This document shows, in pieces, positions 2,607 to 3,674 of a stretch of DNA of 5,161 bases. A program made the position numbers and the translations under genes. Position 1 is the first letter of the stretch, and every line of letters starts with the position of its first letter. Source of the stretch: Betaproteobacteria bacterium (GTDB taxonomy: Bacteria > Pseudomonadota > Gammaproteobacteria > Burkholderiales > Burkholderiaceae); the NCBI GenBank assembly GCA_009921765.1, contig RFXC01000269.1, positions 1-5,161 on the forward strand. The letters run 5' to 3'. The notes beneath the pieces were generated by a model that worked only from the letters and a program-made list of their open reading frames with translations, did not search any database and was not told the origin of the DNA.

Positions 2607-3674
2607 ATGTTTCCAGAACGTGTCGTCTCCGGCATGCGCCCCACCGGGGCGCTGCATTTAGGGCATTACCACGGCGCGCTCAAGAATTGGGTGCGACTGC
2701 AATCCGAGTATCCCTGCCTGTTTTTTGTAGCTGACTGGCATGCCCTCACCACCCACTACGACTCACCCGAAGTCATCGGAAACAATATCTGGGAGATGGT
2801 GATCGACTGGCTCGCCGCCGGCATTGACCCGCAGCAGTCCACGCTGTTCATCCAATCCCGCGTGCCCGAGCACGCCGAACTTCATCTGCTGCTGTCGATG
2901 AGCACCCCGCTTGGCTGGCTGGAACGCGTGCCCACCTACAAAGACCAGCAGGAAAAGCTCTCGGATCGTGATCTGGCCACCTACGGCTTTCTGGGCTATC
3001 CGCTGCTTCAGGCGGCCGACATCCTGATGTATCGCGCCGCATTCGTTCCGGTTGGCGAAGACCAGGTGCCGCACATCGAGCTGACGCGCGAGATCGCGCG
3101 CCGCTTCAATCATCTTTTCGGCCGCGAACCAGGTTTCGAGGACAAGGCGCGCGAAGCGGTCAAAAGACTGGGCAGCAAGCGCGCGCGGATGTATCAGCAA
3201 CTGCGTACCCGCTTTCAGGAGCAGGGCGATGACGAGGCCTTGCAGCAGGCCCGCGAGCTGCTCGACCAATCGCCCAACCTCAGCCTGGGCGACCGCGAGC
3301 GGCTCTTTGGATGGCTTGAGGGAAGCCGGAAGATCATTCTTGCCGAGCCGCAGGCGTTGCTTACCGAGGCCTCGCGGATGCCTGGCATCGATGGACAGAA
3401 AATGTCCAAGAGCTATGGCAATTCGATCGGCATGCGAGAAGACCCCGAGTCGGCCGGTTGCACATCGGCGGGCATCGGTTGCCTGGAGTGCAAACAGCCG
3501 GTGGTCGACGCCGTGCTGAAGGAGCAGCAGGGCTTTCTGGAGCGCGCGCAACCCTATCTCGATGACCCAAGCCTGCTGCGCAACATCATTGCCGATGGCT
3601 GCGACCGAGCCCGCAAACTCGCGCAGGAAACCATGCGGGATGTCCGTGAGGTGATGGGTCTCAGCCATGACTGA
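2607..3674 (+). CDS. trpS: tryptophanyl-tRNA synthetase with an apparent internal in-frame deletion
   Basis: A class I aminoacyl-tRNA synthetase that activates tryptophan with ATP and charges tRNA-Trp in the cytoplasm. Seen: the N-terminal VVSGMRPTGALHLGHYHG with HIGH-type HLGH (17-20), ADWHALTTHY (42-51), LLQAADILMY (133-142), VGEDQVPH (149-156) and KMSKS (265-269). Residues about 186-258 hold the extra segment typical of this proteobacterial subtype. At residues 282-284 REDPES runs straight into GCTSAGIGCLECKQPV. From memory of Ralstonia-like TrpS, about 45 residues belong here (KKIRTMPTDP to a KCPVWQ segment and a helix), giving about 400 rather than 355. The missing part should contain the first Cys of an Fe-S motif whose other three (C285, C292, C295) remain. 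The C-terminal helices from 296 on look normal. The frame is intact, so it may be expressed, but tRNA binding is in doubt. Start and operon position fit coupling to the protease gene. Confidence 0.93.
   Translation: MFPERVVSGMRPTGALHLGHYHGALKNWVRLQSEYPCLFFVADWHALTTHYDSPEVIGNNIWEMVIDWLAAGIDPQQSTLFIQSRVPEHAELHLLLSMSTPLGWLERVPTYKDQQEKLSDRDLATYGFLGYPLLQAADILMYRAAFVPVGEDQVPHIELTREIARRFNHLFGREPGFEDKAREAVKRLGSKRARMYQQLRTRFQEQGDDEALQQARELLDQSPNLSLGDRERLFGWLEGSRKIILAEPQALLTEASRMPGIDGQKMSKSYGNSIGMREDPESAGCTSAGIGCLECKQPVVDAVLKEQQGFLERAQPYLDDPSLLRNIIADGCDRARKLAQETMRDVREVMGLSHD
3450..3458 (+). other. trpS: inferred deletion junction within trpS
   Basis: Codons S282-A283-G284 mark where a segment conserved up to REDPES joins one conserved from GCTSAGIGC on. 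Both flanks read like ordinary betaproteobacterial TrpS and only the intervening roughly 135 bases are missing, with the frame kept. Short TCGGC repeats (3450-3454 and 3465-3469) lie at the join and could have favoured slippage, but they are short enough to be chance. The expected length of the missing part is recalled from relatives, not computed. Confidence 0.7.
3648..3655 (+). promoter_or_regulatory. ribosome binding site inside the trpS end for the methyltransferase gene
   Basis: GAGGTGAT, within the last codons of trpS, is a good anti-16S match, 11 bases before the ATG at 3667. An in-frame stop (TGA 3652-3654) overlaps it, and the first start codon after that stop is ATG 3667. This fixes the methyltransferase start despite the 8-base overlap with trpS. 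Spacing is slightly long. Confidence 0.5.

Follow-up and report, generated by a model that had tools for sequence, protein, structure and literature searches.

An in-frame 135-bp gap in a betaproteobacterial trpS gene is probably an assembly or library artefact

Does a trpS gene whose product is 45 residues shorter than that of its relatives encode a working tryptophanyl-tRNA synthetase (TrpRS), or does it record a gap that the living cell does not have? The window (i.e., the whole stretch of DNA analysed, 5,161 bp) carries on its + strand the end of an alpha/beta-hydrolase-like gene, followed by genes for a PHP-domain protein, a Sua5/YciO-type protein, a peptidase M50, trpS, a methyltransferase and dapA, the match of the first, partial gene being weak (E 3.3e-5, just below the Pfam cut-off). 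Judging from its sequence, the 355-aa product is a betaproteobacterial tryptophanyl-tRNA synthetase. Indeed, it scores 648.6 bits against the NCBIfam profile NF008922 (PRK12283), whose curated cut-off is 572, and it displays both the KMSKS loop and, as HLGH at residues 17-20, the HIGH-type motif (motif name from the available text of PMC2954223), while the helical anticodon-binding domain that follows KMSKS is incomplete, with 45 residues fewer than in the 400-aa protein P0001. The features of the gene are collected in Table 1. Note that the methyltransferase frame has its ATG at 3667, 8 bases before the trpS end (overlap 3667-3674), an arrangement that suggests translational coupling.

Table 1. 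Features of the trpS locus, in window coordinates
Feature	Position	Strand	Basis
trpS, tryptophan--tRNA ligase, 355 aa, without 45 residues	2607..3674	+	ORF call, NCBIfam profile, alignment to P0001
KMSKS ATP-binding loop, residues 265-269, intact	3400..3414	+	
Join, 135 bases of relatives absent, 1-bp microhomology (G)	3452..3453	+	DNA alignments
Three leftover cysteines (C-x6-C-x2-C) of the four-cysteine motif; first cysteine in the absent part	3459..3491	+	

P0001 was the best protein match (best 120 of 8000 scored) and is found on 24 contigs with one member sequence. All 355 aligned residues of the window TrpRS are identical to it (355/355), and the single 45-residue gap corresponds to P0001 residues 283-327. 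DNA alignments with loci from four of the nearest genomes, namely L112 (G042), L114 (G040), L115 (G038) and L116 (G039), each place one 135-base block, absent from the window, at 3452/3453; no further indels were reported against L112, L114 and L115, and the more distant L116 (77-79% identical) displayed two further small indels elsewhere. No frame disruption was seen elsewhere in the window, and the gap is a clean, in-frame 135-bp loss whose ends have a single base (G) in common, with no direct repeat spanning them. An earlier note on this DNA had claimed that about 45 residues were missing in frame just after KMSKS, relatives having about 400 in total, and both P0001 and the DNA alignments bear this out. 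The same note had REDPES joined directly to GCTSAGIGC; the join is present, with the correction that one alanine codon stands between, since the ORF translation reads REDPES into AGCTSAGIGC at 3452/3453.

The absent segment was intact in 111 of the 111 locus records (L001-L111), at least 4 of which are duplicates (L081-L084 repeat L001, L002, L003 and L079); 109 were recognized by pattern and two (L064 and L078) by eye, the pattern having missed them because of one substitution each. Among the 166 retrieved proteins, 152 are at least 390 aa long and 14 are N-terminally short, and none (0/166) was without the whole segment. One of the 166, the metagenomic P0034 (390 aa), is without 10 residues inside the segment (293-302 in P0001 numbering), which makes a second, shorter loss at this site. 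When the same join was sought with residues 258-307 as query, it was found in none of the best 120 of 7998 matches, all of which were 41-53% identical because all align with a gap; the protein collection was clustered at 90% identity, and an identical join could hide inside a cluster. In the plasmid collection, only partial matches of 60-80% identity were found (25 records). The five nearest genomes (G038-G042; 93-99% at the amino-acid level) all carry the 400-aa form. Thus, close relatives sharing the 355-aa join, which the earlier note had named as the evidence that would overturn it, appeared neither among the best 120 of 8000 and the best 120 of 7998 matches nor at the loci, where the segment is present in 111/111. 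An old lineage-specific loss was rejected since the nearest genomes hold the segment, and an intein- or intron-like insertion in the relatives, instead of a deletion in the window, was rejected since the alignment with the Thermotoga maritima TrpRS also runs across the segment. A different shortening occurs in three genomes of the family (G035:C47, G036:C113 and G037:C139), whose 366-codon trpS frame matches P0001 at 84% and then at 71-73%, and which are without most of residues 183-242, an insertion absent also from the T. maritima TrpRS.

What the absent segment holds bears directly on whether a 355-aa enzyme could work. In T. maritima TrpRS, a four-cysteine motif binds a [4Fe-4S] cluster, of which Cys236 is the first ligand and with which Arg224 makes contact (available text of PMC2954223). 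According to the alignment of P0001 to the T. maritima structure 2g36, the equivalents of both Cys236 and Arg224 fall within the segment; the residues were matched by manual counting, in agreement with the KMSKS position, 193-197, given in the available text of that paper. This alignment, together with the domain description in the same text (PMC2954223), also supports the placement of the loss in the anticodon-binding domain by the earlier note. The lost positions that are invariant in 40/40 aligned relatives include Thr292, Asp293, Pro294, Arg296, Cys308 and Trp325, and the full C-x(21-24)-C-x6-C-x2-C motif is reduced to C-x6-C-x2-C in the window TrpRS. All four cysteines occur in 152/152 of the retrieved proteins of at least 390 aa, spaced as C-x21/22-C-x6-C-x2-C. 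In the available text of the 2010 paper (PMC2954223), the motif is described mostly from thermophiles, other extremophiles and anaerobes; among the TrpRS of betaproteobacteria, the [4Fe-4S] cluster may be common.

We therefore weighed whether the window encodes a working 355-aa TrpRS, with an anticodon domain rebuilt without its first cysteine and charging tRNA-Trp without an iron-sulphur cluster or otherwise. The kept frame, the intact catalytic motifs, the profile score above its cut-off and the constrained look of the kept codons speak for such an enzyme, but the invariant positions among the lost residues and the lack of any compensating change, the kept residues being equal to P0001, make it highly improbable. 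Structure prediction points the same way, the mean pLDDT dropping from 70.8 to 60.2, although both AlphaFold2 models are mediocre. For P0001, the model (pTM 0.63) reached 79-95 per ten-residue block over 271-330, while that of the window protein (pTM 0.48) was lowest from ~240 through the junction; both rest on 40-41 close sequences only, and since both are mediocre the contrast carries little weight. To the narrower version, a functional TrpRS that charges tRNA-Trp in spite of having just lost its first iron-sulphur ligand and the beginning of its anticodon domain, we attach next to no credence. If it were true, the cluster and the segment would be dispensable and, more generally, a real and working enzyme would question the need for an iron-sulphur cluster and a proximal anticodon domain in this TrpRS group.

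The kept codons were compared with those of three relatives, giving dN/dS values of ~0.006-0.07 (on the two sides of the gap, ~0.03 and 0.04 against L112, 0.02 and 0.07 against L115, 0.006 and 0.04 against L114). The kept part of trpS is, by these codon ratios, under strong purifying selection, which in combination with the identity to P0001 would place any genuine deletion in the very recent past. If a single cell lineage did lose the 135 bp so recently, it would be left with a defective TrpRS, carried either by a minor or dying variant or by a cell with an intact trpS elsewhere. Such an event fits the identity to P0001 outside the gap, the otherwise unbroken window, and a clean in-frame junction with the 1-bp microhomology that illegitimate deletions can show; it remains unlikely, as the same join is absent among the matches listed (best 120 of 8000; best 120 of 7998) and the nearest relatives are without a separate second trpS. 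Indeed, no separate second trpS was found in these five genomes: G038-G041 gave one trpS match each, and in G042 the intact copy is accompanied by a piece of that gene at a contig end. Some other genomes of the family (e.g., G063) show a second, ~45%-identical trpS match, and for this reason the source cell could possess a paralogue. The window's own 355-aa protein did not occur among the protein matches listed (best 120 of 8000; best 120 of 7998), the 400-aa form being found on 24 contigs.

Altogether, the gap is probably an assembly or library artefact. This reading is favoured because P0001, with 24 contigs behind it, matches 355/355 residues outside the gap, because no relative examined was without the segment as a whole, because the kept codons show dN/dS of ~0.006-0.07, and because contig ends cluster in the segment and, in the nearest genome, one contig begins within it and the other switches identity close by. 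The gap thus exists in the record but most probably does not represent a working enzyme of a living cell, in which a TrpRS of the usual 400 aa is most likely encoded. The earlier note had offered three options, namely that there is a second trpS, that the enzyme works in an unusual way or that the gap is an artefact; best supported is the artefact, or else a very recent broken allele.

The clustering of contig ends was assessed in 74 genomes by counting partial matches that stop no more than 5 bases from the end of a contig; a partial match in G007, which sits inside a 3-Mb contig, was left out. Fourteen contig ends lay inside trpS, in 9 genomes, and 5 of the 14 fell in residues 283-327 (G026 twice, G027, G042 and G025) against 1.6 expected (binomial p 0.015), or 4/9 when counted per genome (simulated p 0.034), in a test that is small and post hoc, as it was devised after the cases were seen. 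Another contig end, at residue 330 in G027, lies just outside the segment. Of the two contigs concerned in G042, which is the nearest genome, one (L113, G042:C100; 95.5% identical to the window) starts 55 bases inside the segment. The other (L112, G042:C186) is 94.5% identical to the window up to 3453 and 90.1% over the last 292 matched bases; compared with G040, it is ~85-96% identical before ~3300 and 95-97% after, its trpS 3' part turning G040-like, and L112 and L114 have 83 identical bases in common across the left junction. Such a switch would fit a chimeric contig or genuine recombination at this position.

Starting from an ordinary betaproteobacterial TrpRS gene, near-identical DNA common to co-occurring related species would break or tangle assemblies at this place, the two flanking pieces would be joined without the middle, and the 135 bp would be dropped as the contig was made, be it in assembly, in the merging of scaffolds or through a chimeric molecule in the library. 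Several observations count against an artefact, i.e., the loss keeps the frame, the window has no frame disruption elsewhere and no other indel against L112, L114 and L115, only 1 bp is common to the gap ends, no unusual hairpin is predicted in the missing DNA, the contig-end test is small and post hoc, and the G042 switch could be real recombination. The earlier note took the kept frame as a mild argument against random error; we would put its weight at a factor of three at most. Repeat-mediated deletion was rejected as a simple mechanism because only 1 bp is common to the ends, which likewise leaves a plain k-mer or repeat-driven misjoin unexplained. Hairpin-driven polymerase skipping was also rejected, since the missing DNA, taken from three relatives, showed no stronger folding than shuffled sequences (z-scores of 0.31, 0.74 and 0.05). 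The mechanism of the join is thus explained neither by a repeat longer than 1 bp nor by a hairpin, and a literature search on strain-driven misassembly found no paper. If the gap is an artefact, it provides a warning that, on a metagenome contig, an essential gene with a clean in-frame gap can pass for biology, and a full-length protein that is identical elsewhere is what exposes such a false gap.

Compared with known systems, the window TrpRS is closest to the 400-aa betaproteobacterial enzymes of NF008922 (PRK12283), here represented by P0001, with which it has the same catalytic motifs and 355/355 identical aligned residues, and from which it differs by the absence of residues 283-327. The T. 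maritima TrpRS (PDB 2g36, with its [4Fe-4S] cluster; available text of PMC2954223) aligns with P0001 over both domains. The 400-aa relatives differ from it by an insertion at ~174-243 that is absent in T. maritima and by a C-x21-C spacing in place of C-x22-C. The window TrpRS retains the last three cysteines of the T. maritima four-cysteine motif, whereas the equivalents of Cys236 and Arg224 are missing from it.
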